From contig JAJPJX010000063.1 of NCBI GenBank assembly GCA_021324015.1, positions 62,001 to 126,000 of the forward strand: 64,000 bases of DNA, written 5' to 3'. A model generated the notes under the pieces. It did not search any database. It was given only the letters and a program-made list of their open reading frames with translations, and was not told the DNA's origin. This document shows positions 47,382-62,843 of the stretch, piece after piece. Position 1 is the stretch's first letter. Every line of letters begins with the position of its first letter. Made by a program: the position numbers and the translations under genes. Origin of the DNA: Solibacteraceae bacterium. GTDB taxonomy: Bacteria > Acidobacteriota > Terriglobia > Bryobacterales > Bryobacteraceae.

Positions 47382-48800
47382 CTATCCGCGCGGAGCGAGC
47401 GCCTCCAGCCGCGTGCGGAGGCCGGCTGCCATGGCCTGGTCCTTCATGGCCTCCACGTTGATGCGCACGTTGGCCAGCGCTCCCGCACGGCAGGCCTGTG
47501 CCAGCGCTTCGGCGGTTTCGATATCCGAGCGGAACCTGGCCGGCGCTGCCGCAGCCAGGCTGCGCAGGTGCTGCTCCAGGTCCGCGGCGTTTTCGGCGAC
47601 TTCCAGCGGCACGCGGGCCGCCTCATAGAGGGCGCGGTCCACCGCGTCGCCCCGCTCGGTTTTGGGGATTTTATAGGCCGCCACCACGCCGTCGTACGCC
47701 TGAGCATCGCGGTTTACGGCTTCGGAAAAGAACTGCCGGCGGGAGTCGAACTCCGTGGGGTCCAGCTTGGCCAGTGCCGCCACCATGGATCCCAGGGCCG
47801 CCGCCATGGCTCCCGCCGCAGCCGCAGCGCTGCCGCCCCCGGGAGTTGCCGCCGGCGCCGCCAGGGCATTCAGGAACTCGTCCAGGCCGCGTTCGGTTGC
47901 CCGTGCCAGACGGTTCTCCAGGATCAGGCCGGGGTGAAAATTCTCCAGCTGAAGGTACCACTCTGCGGTCATGCTGATAGCCTTGGCCGGGATCAGGCCA
48001 ACGATTTCGCTGCCAACTATGCTCACTCCGCAGCGCGCGGCTTCCAACCGGACCGCTTCGAACACGCGGTGGACCGGCGTCTGCTCGAAATCGGTCAGGT
48101 TCATCGAGACCTGGGCCAGACCGCGCGAAGCCAGCGGCACACCCATGGCCTTCACGTAACGAAAGCCCCCCGAGGAGAATCGGATGGCCTTGGCAATCCG
48201 CTTGGCGATCTCGATGTCCGCGGTGTTCAGGTTGATGTTGTAGGCGATTAGAAACTTCCGGGCGCCCACCACAGTTGCACCGGCCGTCGGATGCAACTCC
48301 GCCTCGCCGAAATCGGGCCGGCGCTCGGGATTTTCGCGCACCTCTTCCCGCAGGCCCTCGAACTGCCCCTTGCGAAGGTTTTCCAAGTTAACGCGATCCG
48401 GCCGGCGCGCCGCCGCTTCATAGAGGTAGACCGGCAGGCGCAGCCGCCGCCACAACTCCTCCCCCACCCAATCGGCGATCCGGACGCAATCCTCCAGGGT
48501 GACGCCTTCAATGGGGATGAACGGGACCACGTCGGCGGCGCCGATGCGCGGATGCACACCGGTGTGGGCATTCAGATCGATCAGTTCCACCGCCTTGGCG
48601 ACGCCGCGAATGGCGGCTTCGGCGACCGTCTCCGCGGGAGCGGCAAAGGTCACCACCGAGCGGTTATGGTCCGCGTCCATCTCGCGGTCCAGAATCGCCA
48701 CGCCGGGCGCCGAGCGGATCGCCGCGATGATGGCATCGACTTTGGACTGGTCGCGCCCCTCGGAAAAATTTGGAACGCACTCCACGATGGTGCGGTTCAC
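47382..48800 (-). CDS. ftcD: Glutamate formimidoyltransferase fused to formimidoyl-THF cyclodeaminase
   Basis: 472 residues from the GTG at 48798-48800, which overlaps the hutI stop (GTGA). The first ~290 residues are the formiminotransferase (IVECVPNFSEGRDQSKVDAI, HTGVHPRIGAADVVPFIP). Residues ~295-472 are the helical cyclodeaminase (AAPAATPGGGSAAAAAGAMA). Together they move the formimino group from N-formiminoglutamate to tetrahydrofolate and release ammonia, ending histidine breakdown. Third gene of hutU-hutI-ftcD. The fused form resembles the animal enzyme's architecture. Confidence 0.93.
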   Translation of the reverse strand: MNRTIVECVPNFSEGRDQSKVDAIIAAIRSAPGVAILDREMDADHNRSVVTFAAPAETVAEAAIRGVAKAVELIDLNAHTGVHPRIGAADVVPFIPIEGVTLEDCVRIADWVGEELWRRLRLPVYLYEAAARRPDRVNLENLRKGQFEGLREEVRENPERRPDFGEAELHPTAGATVVGARKFLIAYNINLNTADIEIAKRIAKAIRFSSGGFRYVKAMGVPLASRGLAQVSMNLTDFEQTPVHRVFEAVRLEAARCGVSIVGSEIVGLIPAKAISMTAEWYLQLENFHPGLILENRLARATERGLDEFLNALAAPAATPGGGSAAAAAGAMAAALGSMVAALAKLDPTEFDSRRQFFSEAVNRDAQAYDGVVAAYKIPKTERGDAVDRALYEAARVPLEVAENAADLEQHLRSLAAAAPARFRSDIETAEALAQACRAGALANVRINVEAMKDQAMAAGLRTRLEALAPRG

Positions 48801-50037
48801 TGGACGATCTGCCCGCCTTTCATGGTTTGGCGCACGTTGTTTCCTCCGAAATAGTAGGGTAACTCCCGGTAGTCGGAAACGTTCAGCACGATCAGGTCCG
48901 CCTGTTTTCCCGGTTCGAGGGAGCCGAGACGGTCCGCACACCCCAGCGCGTGAGCGCCGTTGATGGTGGCGGCGGCAATGGCCTCGGCGGGCGTCATGCG
49001 CATCTGCGCGCAGGCCAGCGAGAGCGCCATCTGCATGCTGTAAGTCGGGCTGGTGCCGGGATTGAAATCCGTGGCCAGCGCCACGGCTGCGCCCGCCCCG
49101 ATCAGCGCCCTGGCGGGCGGATAGCGTGTCAGCCCGAGATGGAACACCGCGCCGGGAAGCAGCGTCGCGATAGTCTGCGATCCCGCCAGCGCGCGCAACT
49201 CCTGCTCGCCGGCGCAGTCGAGATGATCCACGCTGGCGGCCCCCAGTTCCACTCCCAGCAGGGCCGCGCCGGTTCGTGTGAACTGCTCGGCATGCATCTT
49301 CAGCCGCAACCCCACGGCCCGGGCGCGCTCCAGGTACTGGCGCGATTGCGCCAGGCTGAACGCTCCGGCGTCGCAGTAAACATCGGCGAAACGGGCGAGC
49401 TTTCGCGCGCTCACGGCAGGCAGCATGTGGGCACACGTCCATTCGATGTAGGCATCCGGCGCGTCCCGGTATTCGGGCGGCGGCACATGCGCGCCCAGGT
49501 AGGTAGGCACGATGCGGAGAGGCTGCCCGTCGAGCCTGGCATACAATTCGAGAGTCTTGTATTCCGCGGCTTCATCCAAACCATAGCCGCTCTTGGCTTC
49601 CGCGGTGGTGGTGCCATGGCGGACCATGGCTTCGAGCGCCGCGCGAACTTGCGCTTCCAGGGCGGAGGCCGGCAGCGACCGCACTGCCCGCACGCTGGAG
49701 AGAATCCCACCCCCGGCCGCGGCGATCTCTTCGTAGGCGGCCCCCGCCAGCCGCATCTCGTAATCCAGCAGGCGCGGCGTCCCGTATGCCAGGTGCGTGT
49801 GGCTGTCCACGAAGCCGGGCATGACGACGCAACCCCGGGCATCGATTTCGTCTGCCTGCCGCGCCCCGGACAGAGCTTCCACCTCGCGGGCCGAACCGGC
49901 GGCGACGACCGCATCCCCGCGGATCAGTACCGCGCCTTGCTCGACGATGCCCAAATCGCGCAGCGCGGCGCCCCGCCGGGGACCGGCGCTGCCTCGCAAG
50001 GTCAGCACCTGGCTGGCGCGGCGAACCAGGATGTGCT

Positions 50038-50041
<4 letters not shown>
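48797..50041 (-). CDS. hutI: Imidazolonepropionase
   Basis: 414 residues from the ATG at 50039-50041, overlapping the hutU stop by 4 bases. Amidohydrolase fold: metal ligands [15 protein letters not shown] (~75), [15 protein letters not shown] (~145), [23 protein letters not shown] and [15 protein letters not shown] with the catalytic Asp. Converts imidazolonepropionate to N-formiminoglutamate, which the downstream FtcD consumes. A longer upstream frame overlaps hutU and is not used. Confidence 0.95.
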
Positions 50042-51684
<1,643 letters not shown>

Positions 51685-51740: not shown

Positions 51741-52016
51741 TTACGTCCGGAAGGAAAATCGATGCGCCAGTCCCGTCAGCTTGAGCACCTTGTAAACCCC
51801 GACGTTGACGCCGCGCAACTCGACTTTAGAGCCATTCTGATCGGCCCTCCCGGCGAGTTGCTCCATCGCTCCGAGGGCACGCGTATCGATGCGTAGCACG
51901 CCGGAGAAATCCAGGACCACTGCTCCTTCGGCGCCGTCGAGGTGTCCAATGACGTCCTGCAACGCGGGAACCGCGCCCGCTTCGTCACTTTTGAGCCAGA
52001 CTGTATTCATCGACAT
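51741..52016 (-). CDS. STAS-domain protein (anti-sigma factor antagonist-like)
   Basis: 91 residues from the ATG at 52014-52016; another ATG at 52010 is possible. AAGGA lies about 11 bases upstream. STAS features: AEGAVVLDFSGVLRIDTRAL, where the phosphorylatable Ser of SpoIIAA-type proteins is replaced (IDTRAL), then GSKVELRGVNVGVYKVLKLTGL. It starts inside the last ~32 bases of adhE, so it is translationally coupled to it, an odd partner. May relay partner-switching signals. Its own partner kinase is not seen nearby. Confidence 0.75.
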   Translation of the reverse strand: MSMNTVWLKSDEAGAVPALQDVIGHLDGAEGAVVLDFSGVLRIDTRALGAMEQLAGRADQNGSKVELRGVNVGVYKVLKLTGLAHRFSFRT

Positions 52017-54672
52017 ATGCCAGGCCATCCTTGGCTGCCGGTTGCTGAGAGGGAGCCGCGCCGTTCGCCTGGCGCCGCCCCGCATACGCTTTCCACAACA
52101 GATCGACCAGTTCGCTCATCAACGGCATACGCGGGTTGGTCGGCCGCCAGGAAGGATCGTCGAAGGCGATCTCGGCCAGTTCCGGAACCGCCCGCTCGAA
52201 TTCCTCCTTCGAAATCCCCAGGCCGGCGATCGAACGGGGTATTGCCAACCGGTCGAGCAACTCTTCGATGGCGGCCACCAGGCGATCCACCTTTTCCGCA
52301 ATCGTGTCGCCGCCCAGGCGGAGCAGGTCTGCTACCATGGCGTATTTCTTGTGCGCCACGTACGCCCGCTGGTGCGGCGAAGGCATGAACTTGCTGGGCA
52401 CGGAGGCGTTATACGCAATGACGTGCGGCAGCATGAGCGCATTGGCGCGGCCGTGGGCCACACCGAAGCGCGCGCCGAGGGCGTGAGCCAGGGCGTGATT
52501 CACCCCCACCGACGCGTTGGAAAAGGCCAGCGCCGCAATACACGCGGCGTTGTGCATCATGCTCCGAGCTTCCTCATTGTCGGGATGTTCATAGGCAATC
52601 GGCAGGAACTTGAACACCATGCGGATGGCCTGCATGGCATGCGAGTCGGTGTAGGGCGAGGCGTAAACCGAGACTCCGGCCTCCAGGGCATGCGTCAGGC
52701 AGTCAATGCCGGTGTCGGCGGTGAGGCCTTTTGGCATCGACATGACAAATTGCGGATCGACGATCGCCACATCCGGGCTGAGGGAGTAATCGGCGAGAGT
52801 GATCTTGCGCCCGCGGTCTTTGTCGATCAGGACGGCAAAGGGAGTGACTTCACTGCCTGTCCCGCTGGTGGTGGAGATGGCAATCAGGCGGGCCCGGTTG
52901 CTTTTCTCCGCCGGGTACTCGGCGATGCGCTTGCGGATATCCAGGAACGGGGCGCCCAGTTCGTCGATGTCGGCCTCCGGCGCCTCATATTTGAGGCGCA
53001 TGATCTTCGCCGCATCGATCACCGACCCGCCGCCCAGCGCGACGATCTGGTCTGCTTTGTAGAAACGGAGCGCCTCCAGCCCCTGCATGACCACCTTCAG
53101 TTCGGGCTCCGCGTCCGGAATGACCAAAACGTGGATATGCGTGAGCGGCGGAATGTGCCTCCGCGCGATGTCCACGTGCCCGATCTGCTCCAGCACCGGG
53201 CTGGTCACGATAATGGTGCAGCGGGACGGGAACTGGCCAAGATTCTCCACCGCGTTCCGGTTGAAGTAGATCTGGTTAGGAATGCGGAACCACGTGTGCA
53301 TTTGCGTCCTCCGGGCCACCCTTTTGATATTGAGGTAGTGATAGACATTCACGTTGTCGGTGGTGCTGTTGCCGCCGCCGGTTCCGCATCCGAAGGAAAA
53401 CGTGGGCACCATGTCGTTGTAGACGCCGCCGATCGCGCCGACGGACCCCGGAGAATTCACAATAATCCGCCCGGCGTTGATCACTTCACTGAATTTCCGG
53501 ATCACCTCGTCATCGCGCGAGAAGACCACGGCGGTATGTCCGATCCCGCCGGCATGGTTCACGTCGATGCACATCTTGAGCGCCTCATCGACGGATCGCG
53601 CGCGGTAGACCGCCAGCACCGGAAACAGTTTCTCTACCGAGAGGGGGTGTTCGCGGCCCACACCGTGAATCGGCGCGATCAGAAGCCGGGTGCTTGCCTT
53701 GACCGGCAGGCCGATCGCGCCGGCGATGGTCGTGGCCTTCTGGCCGATGGCCATCGGCCGCGCGAATCCCGTTTCGGGATCGATCACCGTCCGGCCCAGC
53801 AGTTCCGCCTCTTTCTCGTTGCAGATGTGCGCGTCGAGGTCCGCAAACTTCCGCAGGACAAGGTCATAGACCTCATCATCGATCACCACGGTCTGCTCGG
53901 AGGCGCAGATGGTTCCGTTATCGAAAGTCTTGGACGTCAGGATGTCCACGACAGCCATGTCCAGATCCGCCGTCTTTTCGAGATAGACCGGCGTATTGCC
54001 TGGCCCCACGCCCAACGCCGGCTTGCCGGAGCTATAGGCCGCTTTGACCACACCGGGCCCGCCCGTGGCGTCAATCAGCCCGATGTGCTTGTGGCGCATC
54101 AAGTACGCATTGTCCGGCAGGGTGGGCGATTCCAGGCACGTGAAGACACCCTCCGGCGCGCCGTGCTTCACGGCCGCTTCATACATGATGCGGACGGCCT
54201 CGGCGCAACAACGAAAGGCTCGCGGATGCGGGCTGAAAATGACCGCATTGCGTGTCTTGATGGCCATGATGCACTTGAAGAGAACGGTCGCTGTGGGGTT
54301 CGTAATCGGGGTGAGCGAGAAGAGAACTCCGATCGGTTCGGCGACCTCGGCCAGGTTGCGATCCGGGAACTCCCGAATCTGGCCGACCGTGCGCTTGTCT
54401 TTGACGTAGTTATAGACAAACTCCGTGGCCACCATGTTCTTGATGGCCTTGTCTTCCATCACCCCGAGCTTGGTCTCCTCAAACGCCAGACGAGCCAGGT
54501 AGCGCGCCTGCTCCATCCCCGCCACGACCATCGGCTTCACAATCCGATCCACGTCCTCTTGCGTGTACTGGCTGAAGACGGCGGCGGCGGCTCTGGCCCG
54601 ACTGACCAGCCCTTCCAGGTATGCAACGCGATCTTCACTGAGTTCAGCGAGGCTGGGCACCCTCTCTGTCAT
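51985..54672 (-). CDS. adhE: Bifunctional acetaldehyde-CoA / alcohol dehydrogenase
   Basis: 895 residues from the ATG at 54670-54672 (MTERVPSLAELSEDRVAYLE). The aldehyde dehydrogenase half (~1-440) has the nucleotide loop VGPGNTPVYLEKTADLD and the catalytic Cys in NGTICASEQTVV (~250). The iron-dependent alcohol dehydrogenase half (~460-895) has GGGSVIDAAKIMRL, STTSGTGSEVTPFAV and metal ligands in DTGIDCLTHALEAG, VNHALAHALGARF and HGRANALMLPHV. It interconverts acetyl-CoA, acetaldehyde and ethanol, mainly under fermentative conditions. It overlaps the downstream STAS gene. It is the only acyl-CoA-forming aldehyde dehydrogenase in the window. Confidence 0.96.
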   Translation of the reverse strand: MTERVPSLAELSEDRVAYLEGLVSRARAAAAVFSQYTQEDVDRIVKPMVVAGMEQARYLARLAFEETKLGVMEDKAIKNMVATEFVYNYVKDKRTVGQIREFPDRNLAEVAEPIGVLFSLTPITNPTATVLFKCIMAIKTRNAVIFSPHPRAFRCCAEAVRIMYEAAVKHGAPEGVFTCLESPTLPDNAYLMRHKHIGLIDATGGPGVVKAAYSSGKPALGVGPGNTPVYLEKTADLDMAVVDILTSKTFDNGTICASEQTVVIDDEVYDLVLRKFADLDAHICNEKEAELLGRTVIDPETGFARPMAIGQKATTIAGAIGLPVKASTRLLIAPIHGVGREHPLSVEKLFPVLAVYRARSVDEALKMCIDVNHAGGIGHTAVVFSRDDEVIRKFSEVINAGRIIVNSPGSVGAIGGVYNDMVPTFSFGCGTGGGNSTTDNVNVYHYLNIKRVARRTQMHTWFRIPNQIYFNRNAVENLGQFPSRCTIIVTSPVLEQIGHVDIARRHIPPLTHIHVLVIPDAEPELKVVMQGLEALRFYKADQIVALGGGSVIDAAKIMRLKYEAPEADIDELGAPFLDIRKRIAEYPAEKSNRARLIAISTTSGTGSEVTPFAVLIDKDRGRKITLADYSLSPDVAIVDPQFVMSMPKGLTADTGIDCLTHALEAGVSVYASPYTDSHAMQAIRMVFKFLPIAYEHPDNEEARSMMHNAACIAALAFSNASVGVNHALAHALGARFGVAHGRANALMLPHVIAYNASVPSKFMPSPHQRAYVAHKKYAMVADLLRLGGDTIAEKVDRLVAAIEELLDRLAIPRSIAGLGISKEEFERAVPELAEIAFDDPSWRPTNPRMPLMSELVDLLWKAYAGRRQANGAAPSQQPAAKDGLAYVDEYSLAQK

Positions 54673-54790
54673 GCGATTCGTCCTCCCTGGCCGTGCTACA
54701 GGGCAACAAGATCTGTTTACCTGATAATTATACTCCGAAGCAGCTCCTGGGCAGATCAACACTTGGCATCGCGGATCCGAACGAGGGTGG

Positions 54791-54796
54791 TATAGT
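54791..54796 (+). promoter_or_regulatory. Candidate -10 box of the PIG-L module
   Basis: TATAGT lies 15 bases before the ATG at 54812 in the 139-base gap between the divergent adhE and PIG-L genes. No clear -35 at the right spacing; a GGGGAAA follows as a weak ribosome site. Confidence 0.35.
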
Positions 54797-54811
54797 ACGG
54801 GGAAACAAGCT

Positions 54812-55861
54812 ATGGAACGACGAAAATTCCTCGGCCGGTCGGCGGCGGGAGGGATGGCGGTGGGCTTGGGCGCCGCTCTTAAGCCTTCACGCGGGGCTTC
54901 CGGGCTGCCGGGGAAATTCACTCCCGCGGCGCATGCGATCCCTCACTCGAAGTACAGCCCTTTCACCACGCCCGATTACTACACGTTTGCCGATGACCTG
55001 GTGATCGAACGGAATGTCCCCGGCAAGCCGCATCAGGGCAAGGTCCTTGCCGCTGTCCAGGCCCACTCAGACGATATCCCGCTTTTCGCCGCCGGTACGG
55101 TGGCCAAACTGATCGACGAGGGGTACACGGGCTACCTCATCCGGCTCTCTAATGATGAAGCCGCGGGTAGAACACTGGGCTATGGCGTGGTTCAGAACGA
55201 AGCCGACATCCAGGAAGCGGCCAGGGCCATGGGCTGTAAAAGGGCCTATTCCTTTTACTACCGGAACCACCGCATGGACGACAACGCGGTGATCGAAATC
55301 CGGGCGCGGCTCATCTTCCTGTTCCGGCTGCTGCAAGTGAATACCATCTTCGCCATGGATCCGTACGACCACTACGATGAAAATCCGGATCACATTGTGG
55401 CTGGCAAAGCGGTGGAGGGCGCCTGTTGGATGGCGGGAGGAGGCAAGGACTATCCGGAGCATTACAAGGCCGGACTCAAGCCGGCGCATATCCGCGAGAA
55501 GTACTACCACGCGCGATCTCCCCAGGGACACAATCTGGTGAATCGTGTCGTGGACATCAGTTCGTACATCGATCACAAAGTGCGGACCAACGTGGCCAAC
55601 AAAGGGAAAGGGCCTGCCGGGACGGCGGGGGTGCGGCTCCGCAGGCAACTGGCACGGCAGGGCAAGAAACTGGCCCTGCTGGGGGAGGATGACGAGACCG
55701 CCAACCTGGCGTACGTGAAGTTCTTCCTGATGGACGATTTTCACCTCCTCGGCCAGCAGTTCGGCCTCGAGTACGCCGAAGCATTCCGCTATATCGGCCC
55801 GGAACCGAGCTACGCGGGGAATATCATGAAGTACGCCAGCGAGCATGCCGTTCCGCTCTGA
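54812..55861 (+). CDS. PIG-L family deacetylase A1, Tat-exported
   Basis: 349 residues. Twin-arginine signal MERRKFLGRSAAGGMAVGLG. The LmbE/PIG-L zinc motif is intact: QAHSDDIPL with His 85, Asp 87 and Asp 88; the later metal His is in DENPDHIVAG (~190). PIG-L enzymes remove acetyl groups from GlcNAc-containing molecules. It starts the plus-strand arm of the mirrored module. It is very similar to A2 over almost the whole mature length. The C-terminal YAEAFRYIGPEP motif is shared by A1 and A2 and has a counterpart in B1/B2 (AERFYYVDRRP). Confidence 0.88.
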   Translation: MERRKFLGRSAAGGMAVGLGAALKPSRGASGLPGKFTPAAHAIPHSKYSPFTTPDYYTFADDLVIERNVPGKPHQGKVLAAVQAHSDDIPLFAAGTVAKLIDEGYTGYLIRLSNDEAAGRTLGYGVVQNEADIQEAARAMGCKRAYSFYYRNHRMDDNAVIEIRARLIFLFRLLQVNTIFAMDPYDHYDENPDHIVAGKAVEGACWMAGGGKDYPEHYKAGLKPAHIREKYYHARSPQGHNLVNRVVDISSYIDHKVRTNVANKGKGPAGTAGVRLRRQLARQGKKLALLGEDDETANLAYVKFFLMDDFHLLGQQFGLEYAEAFRYIGPEPSYAGNIMKYASEHAVPL

Positions 55862-55871
55862 GGACTGAACA

Positions 55872-56789
55872 ATGAACTCAGGCGGAGTCCCCTATCTGAA
55901 CCAGGCGGTAGCCGGCACCGGCAACGCTGAGATCGTCCTCGAAACGGACCACCCCGGTCAGCCGCATCAAGGCAAGGTTTTCGTAGCCATCCATGCCCAT
56001 CTGCACGAGTTGCCCTATTACGCGGGCGGCCTCTGCGCCAAGCTGATTCGCGAGGGCTATACAGGCTATCTGGTGCGGACAACCAACGACGAGAAATATG
56101 GCGGCCACACCATCGCCCAGAACATCTTGAGCAACGAACAGGAGCACCTCAAGATGGCCGCGGCAATGGGCTTCAAAGACGTGGCCGACTTGTACTACCG
56201 GGCCCATCGCATGAACGAGATTTCACCCACGGAGATCCGCGGCCGGCTCACCCTGCTCCTGCGCATGTTCAAGGCCGACACGGTGATCTCGTTTCACCCG
56301 TGGGGATACGGCGAAGAGGATACCGACCGCCAGGTAACCGGCCGCGCCGTGGACGATGCCTGCGTGTTGGCTGCTAGCGAGAGCGATTTCCAGGAACACC
56401 TGGAAGCCGGTTTCCGGCCTCAGTCCGTGACCGAACGATATTACTTCCACACTCGCTCTGGCCAGCCGTTCAACCGGCTCGTCGACATCGGCTCCTACGT
56501 GGAAGCGAAGATCGATGCGATGGTCGAGTGCCGGTCTCAAGGCGGCGGTGCGCTCGGCTCCGAACTGCGCGCGCGGCTCGCGCGGCAGGGGAAGCGCCTG
56601 CCCCTGCTCGGCAACGACGACCGCACGGCCAACCGGGAGTACGTCCGCCAGTTTCTCCTCGACGACTTCCGGGATTACGGCAGACCGCACAAATTCTCAT
56701 ACGCCGAGCGGTTTTACTATGTGGATCGCCGCCCGCCGGCGAAAACCAAGGTGGACGAGTACGTCGAAAAAAACGCCGTGGGCATCTGA
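55872..56789 (+). CDS. PIG-L family protein B1, catalytic residues altered (pseudo-deacetylase)
   Basis: 305 residues, no signal peptide (MNSGGVPYLNQAVAG). Clearly PIG-L by alignment with B2 (GKVFVAIHAHLHELPYYAGG), but the Ala-His-x-Asp-Asp motif reads Ala42-His43-Leu-His45-Glu46. The general-base Asp is now His and the metal Asp is Glu. The second metal motif, PDHWVTG in B2, is TDRQVTG here (Arg 153). The rest of the fold looks kept and the frame is open, so it is under selection for something other than ordinary deacetylation, perhaps as a partner of A1. It starts 10 bases after A1. Confidence 0.85.
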   Translation: MNSGGVPYLNQAVAGTGNAEIVLETDHPGQPHQGKVFVAIHAHLHELPYYAGGLCAKLIREGYTGYLVRTTNDEKYGGHTIAQNILSNEQEHLKMAAAMGFKDVADLYYRAHRMNEISPTEIRGRLTLLLRMFKADTVISFHPWGYGEEDTDRQVTGRAVDDACVLAASESDFQEHLEAGFRPQSVTERYYFHTRSGQPFNRLVDIGSYVEAKIDAMVECRSQGGGALGSELRARLARQGKRLPLLGNDDRTANREYVRQFLLDDFRDYGRPHKFSYAERFYYVDRRPPAKTKVDEYVEKNAVGI

Positions 56790-56810
56790 GGTCCGGAAGG
56801 GGCGAAAACG

Positions 56811-58070
56811 ATGCATCCGCAACCATTCACGCGGAGGACATTCCTGAAACAGGCGGCGATCGCCGCCGGTATGCTGCCGAGCCTGCGGGCGGCCATCGAT
56901 AACACAGAGCCGATGAAAATTACCCGCATCGATGCGGTAACGTTTCGTAAGGATATCCACATCGGCGGCGGCTCGGGAGGCTCCGACGAAGCCGAGTTCT
57001 GGTGGGTGCGCCTCCATACCGACAAGGGTATTGTGGGGACGGGCGAGACCTATCCCTTCTCCAACGGGGAGATCGGGGCCCTGAAGGACCATGCGCACAG
57101 CCTTCTCGGCCACGACCCGCGGGACATCGATGGTATCTGGCGCAACCTGTACTTTCAAGGAGTCATGCGGACTGCGGGCGGCGCGGAGATGCGGTTGCTG
57201 AGCGCCGTGAACATGGCCCAACTGGACATTCTCGGCCAGGCTTGCGGGCTGCCCCTCTACCGGCTCCTGGGCGGAAAAACCCGGTCCAGGGTTCGCGTGT
57301 ACAACACGACCACGGACTACTGGGCGATCAACGAGATGAAGATGGGCCGCGATACGATGAAGATCGTCCAGTTCCTGCTCGATCGCGGCACCACCGCGAT
57401 GAAGATCTATCCCTTCAGCGCCCCGGACAATTACATTTCCAGCCAGGCCCTGGAGCGCGGGCTGGGATGGATTCGCGAGATCCGTGATAAGGTGGGCAGC
57501 CAAATGGACATCGCCGTGGACTGCTGGAGCCGCTTCGATTTCACCAGCGCCCTGCGCATCGCCAAGGCACTGGAACCGTACAACATCATGTACCTCGAGG
57601 ACGCCATGATCTCGAGCAACGCCGAGACCTACGCTCACCTCGCCCGCGAAACAAGCGTGCCCATCTGTGTCAGCGAAACCCTGGCCACGCGCTATGGGTA
57701 CCGGCCGTTCCTGGAGGCGAAGGCCTGCTCGGTCGTGATGTACGATGTGACCTGGTGCGGCGGGGTGTCCGAAGCCAAGAAGATCGCGGATCTAGCGGAC
57801 ACCTACATGATTCCCACCTCACCCCATACCTGCGGGGGGCCGCTGCTGTATACCTGCGCGGCGCATCTCTCCACCGCCGTCCCGAATTTCCTCATCATGG
57901 AGAGCAACTACTGGAAGTACGCCCATCAGTTCCCCTACTTTGTGAACCACGCGCCGGTGCCCAAAGACGGCCACGTCACCGCGCCGGAAGCGCCGGGAGT
58001 GGGGGCCGGGATCAAGCCGGAGCTGTTCACCAACGGCGACGCGCTGGTGGAGACCGTCGCCAAAATCTGA
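56811..58070 (+). CDS. Enolase-superfamily enzyme E1 (mandelate racemase/muconate lactonizing type), Tat signal
   Basis: 419 residues with twin-arginine signal FTRRTFLKQAAIAAG. Capping domain ~35-150. The barrel carries the three Mg2+ ligands: Asp in DIAVDCWSRFDF, Glu in YLEDAMI and Glu in ICVSETLATRYG. A likely base His follows in TSPHTCGGPLL. The second-strand Lys region reads AMKIYPF. Members dehydrate sugar acids or racemise alpha-acidic compounds. Exported forms are unusual, since relatives are cytoplasmic. It starts 21 bases after B1 and meets E2 convergently, 33 bases apart. Confidence 0.87.
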   Translation: MHPQPFTRRTFLKQAAIAAGMLPSLRAAIDNTEPMKITRIDAVTFRKDIHIGGGSGGSDEAEFWWVRLHTDKGIVGTGETYPFSNGEIGALKDHAHSLLGHDPRDIDGIWRNLYFQGVMRTAGGAEMRLLSAVNMAQLDILGQACGLPLYRLLGGKTRSRVRVYNTTTDYWAINEMKMGRDTMKIVQFLLDRGTTAMKIYPFSAPDNYISSQALERGLGWIREIRDKVGSQMDIAVDCWSRFDFTSALRIAKALEPYNIMYLEDAMISSNAETYAHLARETSVPICVSETLATRYGYRPFLEAKACSVVMYDVTWCGGVSEAKKIADLADTYMIPTSPHTCGGPLLYTCAAHLSTAVPNFLIMESNYWKYAHQFPYFVNHAPVPKDGHVTAPEAPGVGAGIKPELFTNGDALVETVAKI

Positions 58071-58103
58071 TCGATCTTCTCCGGGGCAGGGGCGCCGAAT
58101 CCA

Positions 58104-59381
58104 TCACAGTTCCGCCACTGTCTCGGTCACGGCGTCGCCATTGCGGAAGGCCTCCTCCCGGACTTCGATTCCCAGGCCAGGCGTCTCCGGCGCGGTCACG
58201 TAGCCGTTGACCGGCGCCGGCACGTTCCGGAGGAAATGCGGATACACATCGTTGTACAGGTGGTACACGCTTTCCATGATGAAGAAGTTAGTCAGCGAGG
58301 TGGCCGTATGGATCGAGGCATACCACAGCAGCGGTCCGCCGCCCGTGTGCGGCGCCGTGGGGATCTTGTAGGTGTCCGCCATATCGGAGATCTTTTTCGC
58401 TTCGGAAATGCCGCCGCACCAGGTGACGTCGTACATCACTACGTCCACCGCCCGCGCCTCGAACATCTCCCGGAACCGGAACCGCGTGGCCAGCCTCTCG
58501 CTGATACAAATCGGGATGGAGGTCTCCCGCGCCAGCGACGCATAGGCCTCCAGGTTGTCGGGCAGCATCGCGTCTTCCAGGAACATGATCCCGTACGGCT
58601 CCAGCGAGTGCGCAATCTGCATCGAACAGGGCAGGTTCCACCGGCTGCTTAAGTCGAGCGCGATTTCGATCTCATCGCCGGCCGCTTTCCGAATCCGCTG
58701 CACCGGATCGAGCGATTGTTTCAGTTCCGCCTGGGTGATGAAGGTGCCGCCGTGCCTGGCCAGGGCGTTGACCGGCCCCCGATCGTAGGGGTAGATCTTG
58801 ATACCCTTGATGCCGCGGCCGAGCAGGAATTCGGCCAGCTTTTCCGGCGCGGTATGCTCCCGCATGCCGTTGATGGGCCAGCCGTTCATGGTGTTGTACA
58901 CCATCAGCTTTTCCTGCGACTTGCCTCCCAGGAGCTTGTAGACCGGTAGGCCGGACGCCTTACCCAGGAGGTCCCACTGCGCGATGTTGATGGCCGTGAG
59001 CATGCGCGTTTCCGCTCCGCCCCACGGCTGGTAAGAGATGTGGTAGAAAAGATCCTGCCAGAGGCGCTCGATCTTCGTCGCGTCTTTCCCCAGCAACAGG
59101 CCGGCCAGTTCCTTAAGCGCGCCGCGATGGGCCTCATAGCCGGGATAGGATTCACCGATGCCGATGATTCCCGTGTCCGTGTGCAACCGCACCCACATCC
59201 AGTTGGGCGCAATTCCCTGGATTTTCAGGTCCTGCCGGAAACGCACTCCTTCGATCTTCGTGATCTTCATGGGGCCGACAGCCGCCGCGGCCGCCTGCGC
59301 CTGCGGGGTCCAAGGCGCGATCCCGGCCCCGGCCAGCGAACCACCAGCCGTTGCCTTCAACAAATCTCTGCGCGTCATCAT
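58104..59381 (-). CDS. Enolase-superfamily enzyme E2, Tat signal
   Basis: 425 residues from the first of two adjacent ATGs. Twin-arginine signal MMTRRDLLKATAGGSLAG. Mg2+ ligands: Asp in IALDLSSRWNLP, Glu in FLEDAMLP and Glu in ICISERLATRFRF. The base His is in TAPHTGGGPLL. The Lys region is IKGIKIYPYDRG, with one more Lys than E1. It shares MYDVTWCGG-SEAKKI with E1. It is the last gene of the minus-strand arm and overlaps B2's stop by 4 bases. Substrate possibly a sugar acid released or unmasked by the PIG-L partners. Confidence 0.87.
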   Translation of the reverse strand: MMTRRDLLKATAGGSLAGAGIAPWTPQAQAAAAAVGPMKITKIEGVRFRQDLKIQGIAPNWMWVRLHTDTGIIGIGESYPGYEAHRGALKELAGLLLGKDATKIERLWQDLFYHISYQPWGGAETRMLTAINIAQWDLLGKASGLPVYKLLGGKSQEKLMVYNTMNGWPINGMREHTAPEKLAEFLLGRGIKGIKIYPYDRGPVNALARHGGTFITQAELKQSLDPVQRIRKAAGDEIEIALDLSSRWNLPCSMQIAHSLEPYGIMFLEDAMLPDNLEAYASLARETSIPICISERLATRFRFREMFEARAVDVVMYDVTWCGGISEAKKISDMADTYKIPTAPHTGGGPLLWYASIHTATSLTNFFIMESVYHLYNDVYPHFLRNVPAPVNGYVTAPETPGLGIEVREEAFRNGDAVTETVAEL

Positions 59382-60301
59382 AGGTTGACCGCGTTTTTCT
59401 CGATGTACTCGTCGGCCTTCGATTTCGCCGGCCGCCGGTCGATGTAGTAGAACCGCTCCGCAAACTCGAGGTTGTGCGGCTTCCCGTGCTCCCGGTCGTC
59501 TTCGAGAAGGAACTGGCGCACGTACGCCCGATCCGCGGCGCGGTCATCGTTCCCCAACAGTGGAAGCCGCTTTCCCTGCCTGGCGAGTTGCGCGCGAACG
59601 ATGGACCCGCGATTGCCGTCGCCCTGAGACTTGCACTCCACGATGGCGTCGATTTTCTTCTCGACGTGGGAACCGATGTCCACCACGCGGTTATATGGCT
59701 GCCCCTCCCGTGCGTAAAAGTAATATCGCTCGCCTACCGTGTGCGGTTGAATGCCCGCCTCCAGGTGCTCGTGGAAATCGTTCGGCATGCCGGCCATCCA
59801 GCAGGCTTCCTCCACGGCCCGCCCGGTCACCCAGTGGTCAGGGTTTTCCTCAGCGTGCCCCCATGGGTTGAACGAGAGAATCGTATCCACCTGGAGCATC
59901 CGGAAAATGAGAATCAGACGCCCGCGCAAGTCGATATAGGAAATGCCGTCCATGTCATGGTTCTGGTAGTAGAAGTCGAATACATCCTTGAACCCGAGTG
60001 CCGCGGCCATCCGGAAGTGGTCCTGTTCGTTGCTCAGAATATTCTCCGCCGTGCTCCGCCCGCCGCATCGCTCATCGTTGCTCGTGCGCAGGATATAGCC
60101 CGTGTAGCCCTCGCTCATCAGCTTGGCGCACAAGCCGGCGGCGTAATAGGGGATATCGTCCAGATGGGCGTGTACGGCTGCAAAGACCTTGCCGCGGTGC
60201 GGCATCCCCGGCTCGTCCTTGACCACGATTGGTTCGCCGCCATTCACCTGGGGCGCCGCGCCCGCCAAGCCGGGCATGGGGAACGATCTTCGATGCATCA
60301 T
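59378..60301 (-). CDS. PIG-L family deacetylase B2
   Basis: 307 residues from the ATG at 60299-60301, after GGGAG; the next codon is also ATG. A TTG further upstream is not needed. The N-terminus MMHRRSFPMPGLAGAAP is a weak or decayed export signal. The zinc motif is intact: VHAHLDDIPYY (His 46, Asp 48, Asp 49) and ENPDHWVTGRAV. The C-terminus AERFYYIDRRPAKSKADEY is shared with B1. Middle gene of the minus-strand arm; it overlaps E2 by 4 bases. Confidence 0.86.
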   Translation of the reverse strand: MMHRRSFPMPGLAGAAPQVNGGEPIVVKDEPGMPHRGKVFAAVHAHLDDIPYYAAGLCAKLMSEGYTGYILRTSNDERCGGRSTAENILSNEQDHFRMAAALGFKDVFDFYYQNHDMDGISYIDLRGRLILIFRMLQVDTILSFNPWGHAEENPDHWVTGRAVEEACWMAGMPNDFHEHLEAGIQPHTVGERYYFYAREGQPYNRVVDIGSHVEKKIDAIVECKSQGDGNRGSIVRAQLARQGKRLPLLGNDDRAADRAYVRQFLLEDDREHGKPHNLEFAERFYYIDRRPAKSKADEYIEKNAVNL

Positions 60302-60331
60302 CCGTCTCCCGATTGCTCTCCTCAACGTTGG

Positions 60332-61399
60332 TTACAGAGGAACCGCGTGTTCCTCGACATACTTGTTGACAATCTGACGGTGCTCCGGTTCCGGTCCGAT
60401 ATAGCGGAACGCCTCGGCGTATTCCAAGCCGAACTGCGCGCCCAAGGTCCGGAAATCGTCCATGATGAAATGCTTCACATACTGAAAATTGGCCGTGTCG
60501 TCGTCGTTTCCCAGCAGAGGCAGTTTCTTGCCCTGCTTCGCCAGGGACTGCCGGAGGCGCGCTCCGTTGTCGCCGGCCGGGCCTTTCCCCTTATTGGCCA
60601 CGTTCGCGCGCACCTTTTGATCGATATAGGAGCTGATATCCACGATGCGATTCACCAGGTTGTGTCCTTGCGGCGCCCGGGCGTGATAGTACTTTTCACG
60701 CACATTCGCCGGCTTCAGCCCTGCCTTGAGCTGTTCCGGATATTCCCTGCCGCCGCCCGTGCCCGCCATCCAGCAGGCTGCTTCCACCTCCCTGCCCACT
60801 ACGAGGTGGTCCGGGTTTTCATCGTAGTGATCAGAGGGGTCCATCAGGAACACCGTGTTCACCTGGAGCAGCCGGAACAGGAAGATCAGCCGCTGGCGGA
60901 TCTCGATGGCCGCGCAATCGTCCATGCGATGGTTCCGGTAGTAGAAGGAGAACGCCTTCTTGCAGCCCAGCGCCTTGGCTGCCTCCCTGTTATCGATCTC
61001 GTTCTGCACGACTCCGTATCCAACCGTCTTTCCGGCTTTTTCGTCGTTGGATAGCCGGATGAGATACCCGGTGTATCCTTCATCGATGAGCTTGGCGACG
61101 GTGCCGGCGCAGAACAGGGTGATGTCGTCCGAGTGCGCCTGCACCGCTGCCAGCACCTTGCCCTGGTGTGGCTTCCCCGGCTGGTTGCGCTCGATCACCA
61201 GGTTGTCGGCGTAAGTGAAGTAATCCGGCGTGAGCCCCGCGCTGTTCGGGGACTTGGGAACCGTGTACGCCGACGGGGTGAACTTCGGCGGCAGATCCGA
61301 TCGCTGCCCGTAAGCCGAGGGCGCCTGCTGTAGCGCCGCGGCGCCGCCCAGAGCTAGTCCTGCTGAGACCGGCCGGCCCAGAAACTGACGTCTGTCCAT
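60332..61399 (-). CDS. PIG-L family deacetylase A2, Tat-exported
   Basis: 355 residues from the ATG at 61397-61399, preceded by AGGAGG. Twin-arginine signal MDRRQFLGRPVSAGLALGG. Zinc motif VQAHSDDITLF (His 89, Asp 91, Asp 92) and DENPDHLVVG. Near-copy of A1. First gene of the minus-strand arm, followed by B2 30 bases downstream. Its own promoter must lie in 61400-61486, because a terminator separates it from the lactonase gene upstream. Confidence 0.88.
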   Translation of the reverse strand: MDRRQFLGRPVSAGLALGGAAALQQAPSAYGQRSDLPPKFTPSAYTVPKSPNSAGLTPDYFTYADNLVIERNQPGKPHQGKVLAAVQAHSDDITLFCAGTVAKLIDEGYTGYLIRLSNDEKAGKTVGYGVVQNEIDNREAAKALGCKKAFSFYYRNHRMDDCAAIEIRQRLIFLFRLLQVNTVFLMDPSDHYDENPDHLVVGREVEAACWMAGTGGGREYPEQLKAGLKPANVREKYYHARAPQGHNLVNRIVDISSYIDQKVRANVANKGKGPAGDNGARLRQSLAKQGKKLPLLGNDDDTANFQYVKHFIMDDFRTLGAQFGLEYAEAFRYIGPEPEHRQIVNKYVEEHAVPL

Positions 61400-61613: not shown

Positions 61614-62843
61614 TCAGGACCGTCCGCTGCCCCGCTCCACGAGGAAGGCCAGAAAAGACGGAGTCCCCACAGGCGTGTATTGGCCCGTGTGGGTGAGCGC
61701 GCCTGTCTTCCGGTTCACCCGGAAGGACACGATCGCGTCCGCCCGTTGGTTGCAGCAGTACACGAACCGCCCGGACGGGTCAAAGGTGAAGAAGCGCGGG
61801 TAGTTGCCTCGCGTGGGCTCTTCGCCGGCGAATCTCAGCGTCCCGTCTCCTGCTATGGAAAACCAGGCGATGGTGTCATGCAGCCTGTTGGCGGCATAGA
61901 CGAAGCGCGCATCCGGAGAGATTGCGACCTCGGAGGTGTAGTTGGTACCGGCGAAGCCCGGTGGCAGCGACGAGATCGTCTGCCTCGCCCTCAGGCGCCC
62001 GGTAGCGCCATCGTAGTCGAAGGTCACCAGGGTAGAGCCTTCCTCCTGGAGCGAGTAGAGCAGTCGGCCGTTCGGATGAAAGGCGAAGTGCCGCGGACCG
62101 TCGCCCGGCGCGACAGCAACCGAGGGCGGATCGTTAGGCATCAGCTTCCCGCCGGCGGCATCGAATTTCCAGACCAGGATCCGGTCGAGTCCGAGATCTG
62201 CGGCGAGCACGAAGCGGCCCGATGGGTCGGGCTGGATCATGTGCGAGTGCGTGCGGTCGTGGCCGCTCCAGGCAAAGCTGCCCGGCGGCGCGCTGGTGGC
62301 GCGGCGGGGGCCGAGAACGCCGTCGTGGTGCTTTACATCGCTGGCCGCGCCGAGCTCGCCGTTTGCACCGATCGGAATAACCGCCGAGGTTCCGCCGTGG
62401 TAATTCGCAACGAACAACCACTTGCCAGACTGGTGCAGGCTCAGGTGGCACGGGCCGGCGCCTTCCGACGCAACCGTGTTCATCAGCTTCAGGCGCCCGC
62501 CGGGGCGCTCGATCTCGTACGCGCTTACCGAGCCGCTGTTCGCACCCCCGTACGTCGATGTCTCGTTCGCCGAATACAGACGCGTCCCGGAGGCATTCAG
62601 CGCCAGACAGGACGGGTTCTCGGCGTTGGGAAACAGCGCGCGCTCTACGAGCACGCCGGTGATCGGGTTCATCTCGAGCAGGTAAATGCCTTTGCCCCGG
62701 CCCGGGGCGCCTTCGGCTCCGACTGGAGCGCTGTACGTGCCGGCATAGGCCAGAATCGGCCCGCGCCCGGCGGCCATCGAAGTTGCCGCTGCTGCCGCAG
62801 TTGCGCCCGCAAGGAATTCACGGCGTGAGTTCCGCACTGTCAT
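61614..62843 (-). CDS. Lactonase-family beta-propeller protein (YbhE/Pgl-like), Tat-exported
   Basis: 409 residues. Twin-arginine signal NSRREFLAGATAAAAATSMA. The rest is a seven-bladed propeller with repeated Ser-Gly-Arg/Lys-x-Leu/Val-x-Tyr/Val-x-Ala-Asn steps, for example LNASGTRLYSANE, HQSGKWLFVANYHGG, HPNGRLLYSLQEEG and DARFVYAANRLHD. Members of this family include 6-phosphogluconolactonase and muconate cycloisomerase-like proteins. An exported lactone hydrolase beside exported sugar-acid-type enzymes suggests one periplasmic route, but a terminator separates it from the module. Ribosome site AAGGAG. Confidence 0.85.
   Translation of the reverse strand: MTVRNSRREFLAGATAAAAATSMAAGRGPILAYAGTYSAPVGAEGAPGRGKGIYLLEMNPITGVLVERALFPNAENPSCLALNASGTRLYSANETSTYGGANSGSVSAYEIERPGGRLKLMNTVASEGAGPCHLSLHQSGKWLFVANYHGGTSAVIPIGANGELGAASDVKHHDGVLGPRRATSAPPGSFAWSGHDRTHSHMIQPDPSGRFVLAADLGLDRILVWKFDAAGGKLMPNDPPSVAVAPGDGPRHFAFHPNGRLLYSLQEEGSTLVTFDYDGATGRLRARQTISSLPPGFAGTNYTSEVAISPDARFVYAANRLHDTIAWFSIAGDGTLRFAGEEPTRGNYPRFFTFDPSGRFVYCCNQRADAIVSFRVNRKTGALTHTGQYTPVGTPSFLAFLVERGSGRS

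Follow-up and report, generated by a model that had tools for sequence, protein, structure and literature searches.

Two related, non-equivalent PIG-L/enolase-superfamily operons set tail to tail in a Solibacteraceae genome: a possible exported route for amino-sugar acids

Why would a bacterium carry two PIG-L genes followed by an enolase-superfamily gene, and then the same kinds of genes again in mirror image beside them? The question is raised by a stretch of 64,000 nucleotides from a Solibacteraceae bacterium (Acidobacteriota; assembly GCA_021324015.1, contig JAJPJX010000063.1, positions 62,001 to 126,000), which we call the window. An earlier note, made from the letters alone, had described six genes between 54812 and 61399 in mirrored order, meeting tail to tail, and both the open reading frames (ORFs) and the Pfam matches confirmed this arrangement. 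We propose that the locus consists of two related, non-equivalent operons for the exported (periplasmic) catabolism of N-acylated amino-sugar acids or their lactones, a reading that we give about an even chance of being correct. The gene set, its conservation, the trees, the active-site residues, the signal motifs and the neighbourhoods were all read from sequence. The six genes, with Tat standing for twin-arginine translocation and MR for mandelate racemase, are as follows.

54812-55861, plus strand: A1, a PIG-L/LmbE protein (ORF, Pfam) with a Tat-type signal and an intact HSDD...NPDH metal site, the codons of which lie at 55058-55075 (HSDD) and 55382-55393 (NPDH)
55872-56789, plus strand: B1, a second PIG-L protein with no signal peptide seen and with metal and catalytic residues lost (HLHE for HLDD at 55992-56009; TDR for PDH at 56319-56330)
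56811-58070, plus strand: E1, an enolase-superfamily protein (MR subgroup) with a Tat-type signal and the signatures D-x-W (VDCW) at 57516-57527 and K-x-Y at 57399-57416
58104-59381, minus strand: E2, an enolase-superfamily protein of a second old family, with a Tat-type signal and the signatures D-x-S-S at 58644-58658 and K-x-Y at 58785-58802
59378-60325, minus strand: B2, a second PIG-L protein with intact HLDD (60155-60172) and NPDH (59834-59845) and no clear signal peptide; its start codon is uncertain, being either TTG at 60325 or an internal ATG
60332-61399, minus strand: A2, a PIG-L protein with a Tat-type signal and an intact metal site

The order is thus A1-B1-E1 on the plus strand and E2-B2-A2 on the minus strand, with E1 and E2 convergent and 33 bases apart. 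Comparison of the DNA of the two arms revealed inverted repeats in four stretches, with 70-81% identity, and the proteins were 74% (A1/A2), about 62% (B1/B2) and 48-51% (E1/E2) identical. As had been claimed, A1/A2 and B1/B2 were closer to each other than A was to B, the identity of A1 being 42% to B1 and 46% to B2. Searches of the source genome (8.2 Mb in 214 contigs) matched PIG-L 20 times and the enolase superfamily 73 times, a gene in several pieces contributing one match per piece. Because this genome is so rich in both, adjacency of such genes is unimpressive on its own, and it is conservation of the arrangement that counts instead. Expansion of the enolase superfamily has a published case in the SAR202 bacteria, as presented in PMC6946804.

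Genome contigs were scanned with the A/B alignment, which yielded 34 loci; the close ones came mostly from metagenome genomes and were titled mainly Bryobacterales, Solibacteraceae, Terriglobia or Acidobacteria. Conservation was counted in the 23 loci with A at 65% identity at least, including the two in the window, and an E gene was called near when its centre lay less than 4.2 kb from the centre of A, or less than 2.5 kb if the strands differed. A same-strand B gene followed A in 21 of the 23 loci, and in the other two the contig ended 3 or 292 bases past A. An E1 or E2 orthologue was near A in 18 of the 23 (17 on the same strand and 1 divergent). Among the 21 loci outside the window the order A-B-E occurred in 14 and E was near in 16: A-B-E1 in four (L021, L024, L029, with one gene between, and L036), A-B-E2 in eight, A-B-E1-E2 as a single run in two (L028 and L039), and E2 upstream or divergent in two (L033 and L035); the remaining five were without E, two of them being contig ends. 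Locus L039 is titled Acidimicrobiia, but its genes group with Acidobacterial ones and the bin may be mixed. The A-B-E module, whose absence from every other genome the earlier note would have taken as fatal, exists in other Acidobacterial genomes.

The three genes also kept company at the level of whole genomes. When 26 genomes were searched with E1, an E1 orthologue (at least 72%) was found in 16, an E2-type gene in 17, both in 11 and neither in 4, and an E that was missing beside A-B was found elsewhere in the genome in G119, G104, G053, G126, G121, G122 and G135. Of 120 genomes of the order, 8 had A orthologues (at least 69%, full length) and 6 had E2 orthologues (at least 76%), all six lying within the 8 with A (Fisher test, 8e-9, relatedness uncorrected); E1 was present in 7, five of which had A (6e-6, likewise uncorrected). 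For these 120-genome counts the top 14-18 candidates were scored per genome, so that an orthologue could be missed, and E1 was searched directly in 10 genomes and read from the score against E2 in the others. A genome crowded with 20 PIG-L and 73 enolase matches might be expected to throw such genes together by chance, but the 14 of 21 loci in A-B-E order, the 16 of 21 with E near and the genome-level co-occurrence make this explanation scarcely credible, and we rejected it.

The trees showed that the two arms differ in kind. In the A tree, A1 grouped with its counterpart in L021 (support 100/99) and A2 with those of L026, L033, L037 and L041 (100/99), both lying within one Acidobacterial clade of 8 rows (97/95). 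In the E tree, a 16-row E1 clade (100/100) and an 18-row E2 clade (100/99) were separate, and each spanned the group; long branches meet near the outgroup and the root is unsure, both clades being nevertheless well supported, and the E1 row of L154 was retained though out of frame near its end. In the B tree, from which the fragments L156_4231, L051_1 and L035_1885 were omitted, B1 grouped with the B of L021 (100/100) and B2 with those of L026, L037 and L041 (97/91), while the bootstrap was unsettled and left most inner forks and the B1-B2 relation without resolution. Arm 1 matched L021 at 85/78/91% and arm 2 matched L026 at 81/86/88%, both exceeding the match of arm to arm. These pairings of A, B and E indicate that arm 1 is an L021-type operon and arm 2 an L026-type operon, set tail to tail. 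A full functional set would seem to be A + B + E1 + E2, with A-B doubled here and each pair provided with a different E; either duplication with complementary loss or acquisition of another operon may have produced the two arms.

A recent inverted duplication of the whole triplet, without functional meaning, would account for the inverted repeats and for the presence of A1 and A2 in one clade. It is nonetheless very improbable, for E1 and E2 fall into two separate clades that span the group, the arms match L021 and L026 better than they match each other, and the ratio of nonsynonymous to synonymous substitution (dN/dS) was 0.06-0.18 in six arm-to-orthologue pairs; we rejected it on the E tree. 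The same tree lends no support to the earlier suggestion that one triplet was duplicated as a unit, which A1 and A2, as members of the 8-row clade, would have allowed. As to the unrelated sister groups that would have told against that suggestion, A1 and A2 proved close, B1 and B2 gave no resolution, and E1 and E2 are old paralogues. What stands of the statement that three genes are repeated is the mirrored order and the inverted repeats; E1 and E2 belong to two old families, and the catalytic site of B1 is degenerate.

All four PIG-L proteins scored above the PF02585 gathering score of 28.2 bits (A1 49, B1 35.7, B2 41.1 and A2 53.5), with E-values from 1.4e-8 to 4.3e-14. LmbE-like enzymes, as described in PMC4101496, carry an HxD1D2 + H motif, in which D1 is the catalytic acid/base and D2 and two His residues are the metal ligands, and the bond cut by most of the characterised members is given there as the N-acetylglucosamine amide. 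B2 and all 46 rows of A and A-like proteins have the motif, and D1D2 was kept in 23 of the 26 covered B rows. B1, with HLHE and TDR, is a member of the PIG-L fold that fails this motif test; the B of L021 has HLQD with the second His retained, and that of L035 has HVSD and SDR. The L035 gene (L035:1885-2738) is split across two frames with a degenerate metal site, which may reflect decay of the gene or a fault of the assembly. The dN/dS values were 0.17 for B1 versus the B of L021, 0.10 for B2 versus L026, 0.08 for A1 and 0.18 for A2. Since its value is 0.17, B1 is constrained by purifying selection and not decaying. A1 is predicted to be a zinc de-N-acylase and B1 is likely its pseudoenzyme partner; the deacetylase pair that was thought to have been kept twice is therefore not one in arm 1, where B1 is without catalytic and zinc residues.

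Two other proteins of the source genome bear on the pairing. One (L011, G000:C162:107415 ff; L011:1441-3087) is a single protein of 548 residues in which an active and a dead PIG-L domain are fused: the N-terminal half is intact and alone passes Pfam, and the C-terminal half, which matches A1 at 30% (tblastn), is without both zinc His residues and D1. The other (L009, G000:C3:92308-94604; L009:1489-3048) has 519 residues and two intact PIG-L domains, with another PIG-L gene adjoining. These double proteins support the idea of paired PIG-L units. The structural model of B1 (predicted local distance difference test, pLDDT, 90) gave as its best fold match diacetylchitobiose deacetylase 4xm2 (Z 27.3, root-mean-square deviation (rmsd) 3.0, 230 residues aligned), tied with LnmX (Z 26.8) and followed by GalB 5cgz (Z 24.5), and in a profile search with A/B the nearest solved relatives were likewise diacetylchitobiose deacetylases.

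The N-termini of A and E suggest that the reactions take place outside the cytoplasm. A twin-arginine motif, RRx[FLIVMW], was found near the N-terminus in 22 of 22 readable A rows (L037 being the one of 23 rows without a readable start), in 15 of 15 E1 rows and in 15 of 17 E2 rows, and the NCBIfam model TAT_signal_seq scored above cut-off for A1 and E2. Of 26 B rows, two of which are fragments without an N-terminus, a single one had the motif with a hydrophobic stretch, and that one lies in a doubtful extension; some Latescibacterota B proteins (L040, L051 and L178) have a leader-like start with no twin arginine. The B start is usually tens of bases at most from the A stop. From these features we infer Tat export of A and E, with B co-exported bound to A.

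Neighbouring genes hinted at a pathway in Latescibacterota, where the A-B pair lies in the same cluster in each of the three genomes in which we saw it. The cluster runs EF_0837-like amidohydrolase (divergent), A, B, RidA, DgaE-like ammonia-lyase dependent on pyridoxal phosphate (PLP), small protein, and RraA-like aldolase. Of these clusters, L040 alone was run against the family models, and the amidohydrolase, RidA, DgaE and RraA of L178 and L179 were 60-81% identical to those of L040; an AGE-type 2-epimerase is present in the L040 cluster, one of the three. These clusters, apparently exported, are at the following positions.

L040:2747-12657
L178:3156-11155
L179:3371-10743

Related arrangements were seen elsewhere: in L051 a run of three B genes precedes two RidA genes and a DgaE-like gene, and in Acidobacteria an A-like PIG-L gene lies near DgaE-like genes in L046, L050, L110 and L120, of which L046 also holds amidohydrolases and an HpcH/HpaI aldolase. 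In L120 (G000:C136:68153-72144), which belongs to the source genome, the DgaE-like PLP gene adjoins a three-PIG-L cluster. The DgaE-like proteins of L040, L046 and L051 scored 144-169 bits against a cut-off of 600 and 165-186 against one of 385. In all, a DgaE-like gene was present in 6 of 68 stretches, some with short flanks, and none of the six was an A-B-E locus or the window. Beside A-B in Acidobacteria, the slot of the PLP enzyme is occupied by E1/E2. This holds for the neighbourhood only; the candidate argument that E replaces DgaE by genome-wide absence failed, since all 23 genomes searched, including two from Latescibacterota, had DgaE-like genes. RidA-like genes were found in 18 of 21 genomes and RraA-like genes in 19 of 20.

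In the Acidobacterial loci themselves there were mostly no conserved flanking genes pointing to a substrate, and the flanks varied save in a few near-identical relatives. RraA genes with signal-like starts (judged by eye) adjoin E2-A-B in L033 and E1 in L145. In L146 a pyrroloquinoline quinone (PQQ) dehydrogenase neighbours E1, and a second, recognised by 49% similarity, is close to A-B-E2 in L041. Outer-membrane proteins of the OMP_b-brl/CarboxypepD_reg kind were common near the module; no background count is available for them, and we gave them no weight. ABC-transporter-type genes were among the neighbours of A/B relatives, and in L043 (L043:2718-6846) a Chloroflexi B-type PIG-L gene has an ABC transporter permease gene on one side and a gene for a solute-binding protein on the other. 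In the window one more gene runs in the direction of arm 2.

61614-62843, minus strand: seven-bladed beta-propeller lactonase (PF10282) with a twin-arginine start, upstream of A2

This lactonase is a possible further member of arm 2; no relatives of it were seen in the other locus stretches examined. The RraA neighbours matched the ligK_PcmE models below cut-off, and this match, together with GalB among the structural relatives of B1 and the RraA gene beside E2-A-B in L033, led us to consider A/B as GalB-like hydratases in a carboxylic- or aromatic-acid route, with RraA as an aldolase of the 4-carboxy-4-hydroxy-2-oxoadipate type. We think this quite unlikely, as deacetylases fit the fold better (Z 26-27), no GalB appeared in the profile search at E 0.01, A and E have Tat-type signals, and the neighbours of A/B relatives include AGE-, DgaE- and ABC-transporter-type genes.

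Both E1 and E2 have the MR_MLE N and C domains (Pfam), and the residues that we take to be the His-Asp dyad and the three Mg ligands (D, E and E) were conserved in all E rows covering them. The E2 model (pLDDT 91) matched 2pod best (Z 53.5, rmsd 1.6, 375 aligned, 36%), and several of the closest structures to E are titled putative dehydratases. The family models that matched E best were those of galactonate dehydratase (NF010624 and NF040790; 6.5e-58 for E1 and 1e-68 for E2), both below cut-off, so that the D-galactonate dehydratase equivalog test failed (197 bits for E1 and 232 for E2 versus 311; 182 and 202 versus 750). The strand-3 ExH of the outgroup is DxW in 16 of 16 E1 rows and DxS in 18 of 18 E2 rows; that is, the His two residues past the first metal ligand, present in 2pod and in 3 of 3 outgroup rows, was found in 0 of 34 E rows. 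This His serves as the acid in the known dehydratases DgoD and ManD. The strand-2 KxW of the outgroups is KxY in all 34 E rows, and we take its Tyr to sit where mandelate racemase would have its second strand-2 Lys. Because the strand-3 His is absent and the strand-2 Tyr is present, E1 and E2, judged by these residues, are not standard galactonate or mannonate dehydratases.

Two other readings of the enzymes were considered. E1 and E2 might be plain aldonate dehydratases of the galactonate dehydratase kind in an exported pathway for non-amino sugar acids bearing an ester or amide, which A/B would deacylate. Their best family models and structures, and the lactonase and PQQ dehydrogenase neighbours, speak for it; we consider it unlikely, since none of the 34 E rows has the outgroup His and the N-acetylglucosamine amide is the usual target of the LmbE-like enzymes characterised in PMC4101496. 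A minority possibility that deserves more weight is that E1 and E2 are racemase-like C2-epimerases of an amino-sugar or N-acyl amino-sugar acid, with the strand-2 Tyr and the His-Asp dyad as bases on opposite faces, and that DgaE and RidA encoded elsewhere carry out dehydration and deamination. The absence of the strand-3 His, the strand-2 Tyr and the retained dyad would fit such an enzyme, as would the DgaE and RidA homologues elsewhere in A-B-E genomes and the AGE-type 2-epimerase of L040, and N-acyl amino acid racemases belong to the enolase superfamily. AGE is, however, in one of the three Latescibacterota clusters only, and the nearest family models of E are acid-sugar dehydratases, with several of the nearest structures titled putative dehydratases.

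Returning to the amino-sugar-acid reading, we envisage the following course; what the substrate is, that A and B form a complex, that proteins are exported or co-exported, that metals are used, which reaction E catalyses and in what sequence the steps follow are all inferred. Both A and E would leave the cytoplasm by the Tat system, and B, which has no signal of its own, would probably travel bound to A. By the zinc mechanism of PIG-L enzymes A would then strip the N-acyl (acetyl) group, with B as a paired subunit that would be active in arm 2 but a pseudoenzyme in arm 1; among the roles considered for A(-B), removal of the acetyl group from an amino-sugar acid outside the cytoplasm is the best supported. 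E1/E2, dependent on Mg2+ and using the His-Asp dyad and the second-strand Tyr, would take the proton next to the carboxylate of the freed 2-amino (or plain) aldonate, the outcome being, as first choice, elimination to a 2-keto-3-deoxy acid and, as second choice, C2 epimerisation. A class II (RraA-type) aldolase, a gene for which adjoins E in two genomes, could split the keto acid. We further put forward, tentatively and in the knowledge that it is doubtful, that E1 and/or E2 are metal-dependent, PLP-free, ammonia-releasing dehydratases of 2-amino-2-deoxy-aldonates, which would replace the DgaE/OngC-type PLP enzyme in an extracytoplasmic pathway, behind a two-subunit PIG-L deacetylase of which one subunit is able to turn pseudoenzyme.

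Several observations weigh against this pathway. The lack of the strand-3 His of known dehydratases speaks against ordinary dehydration by E1/E2. When A1 was searched alone, the BshB-type 2ixd came first (1.7e-10) and diacetylchitobiose deacetylase second (2.8e-9), and its best family model, BshB1, was under cut-off; in NCBIfam only the Tat signal domain model passed cut-off for A, B or E. The PIG-L fold includes a non-deacetylase, the GalB hydratase that matched the B1 model at Z 24.5, and the relatives of RraA act in aromatic catabolism. Most of the A-B-E genomes that were searched carry DgaE-, RidA- and RraA-like genes at other places, and the RraA, PQQ and lactonase neighbours were seen in one or two loci each. 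Of the 26 genomes, E was missing from G001 (81% complete), G129 and the Latescibacterota G132 and G134, G129 having no E by the E1 search, yet a partial E2 in its locus L035; conversely, E1 occurred without A-B in G026 and in G068, where RraA adjoins it. An amino-sugar-acid pathway, close to what the earlier note had guessed, is still the best reading, with Dac-type deacetylases as the nearest structures and A-B beside DgaE-, RidA- and RraA-like genes in Latescibacterota.

Some further genes of the window lie upstream of arm 1. An AdhE-like fusion of aldehyde dehydrogenase and iron alcohol dehydrogenase (51985-54837, minus strand) is directly upstream of A1 and divergent from it, its open frame running into the A1 start unless a later start codon is used. 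Beyond it are histidine breakdown genes, a urocanase found by Pfam (48797-51684, minus strand) and an adjoining ORF that resembles imidazolonepropionase by eye only. The 64-kb window gave no tRNA genes, and scans for sigma-70 promoters and terminators gave counts at chance level.

Soils hold a large nitrogen store in the amino sugars of chitin, fungal walls and peptidoglycan, and Acidobacteria of this kind are common in soil. If the proposal is true, deacetylation and sugar-acid breakdown take place in these bacteria outside the cytoplasm, and an enolase-type enzyme acts at a step for which PLP enzymes are known. Family models now place these proteins only loosely near galactonate dehydratase or PIG-L, and the invariant E1/E2 signatures, the pairing of A with B and the pseudoenzyme B1 offer three sharp, testable points.

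In the open-licence PubMed Central papers searched, we found no description of an A-B-E or PIG-L/enolase system; the locus combines known enzyme superfamilies in a way that we have not found reported. E1 and E2 share with the galactonate dehydratase-like MR subgroup (2pod, 4dx3 and the DgoD models) the fold, the domains, D/E/E and the His-Asp dyad, and differ from it in having DxW (E1) or DxS (E2) for ExH, KxY for KxW, and a Tat-type signal. The Pyrococcus N,N'-diacetylchitobiose deacetylase (Dac) is the best fold match for the B1 model and the best match for the A/B profile and, like A and B2, has HxDD + H; the identity, in contrast, is 21-24% only, A has a Tat-type signal, A and B are paired wherever the contig leaves room, B1 has lost its site, and A1 alone matches the BshB type first. 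As to D-glucosaminate dga systems (DgaE and the EF_0837-type amidohydrolase; TIGR01437, NF047797 and TIGR03583), DgaE-like genes adjoin A-B or A-like PIG-L genes, and EF_0837-like amidohydrolases also adjoin in some loci; the scores, however, are under the equivalog cut-offs, signal-type starts suggest export, and such genes are absent around the module in the window. The ong pathway of Pseudoalteromonas prydzensis, as portrayed in PMC9537276 and PMC12017989, uses a deacetylase, a PLP deaminase and RidA, deacetylating GlcNAc1A and then deaminating it to a 2-keto-3-deoxy acid, and includes TonB-dependent receptors. In those accounts OngB is an amidohydrolase (D-aminoacylase-like), not a PIG-L protein, and the steps are cytoplasmic. 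The module in our window failed as an OngB/OngC-type cluster, its direct neighbours being of other families (OngB and OngC themselves did not serve as queries); it has no adjoining PLP enzyme or RidA, and has instead enolase-superfamily proteins and Tat-type signals on A and E. The Latescibacterota A-B clusters come closer: they combine RidA and a gene resembling PLP ammonia-lyases with what is likely a pair of deacetylases, and are apparently an exported analogue of the ong and dga routes.

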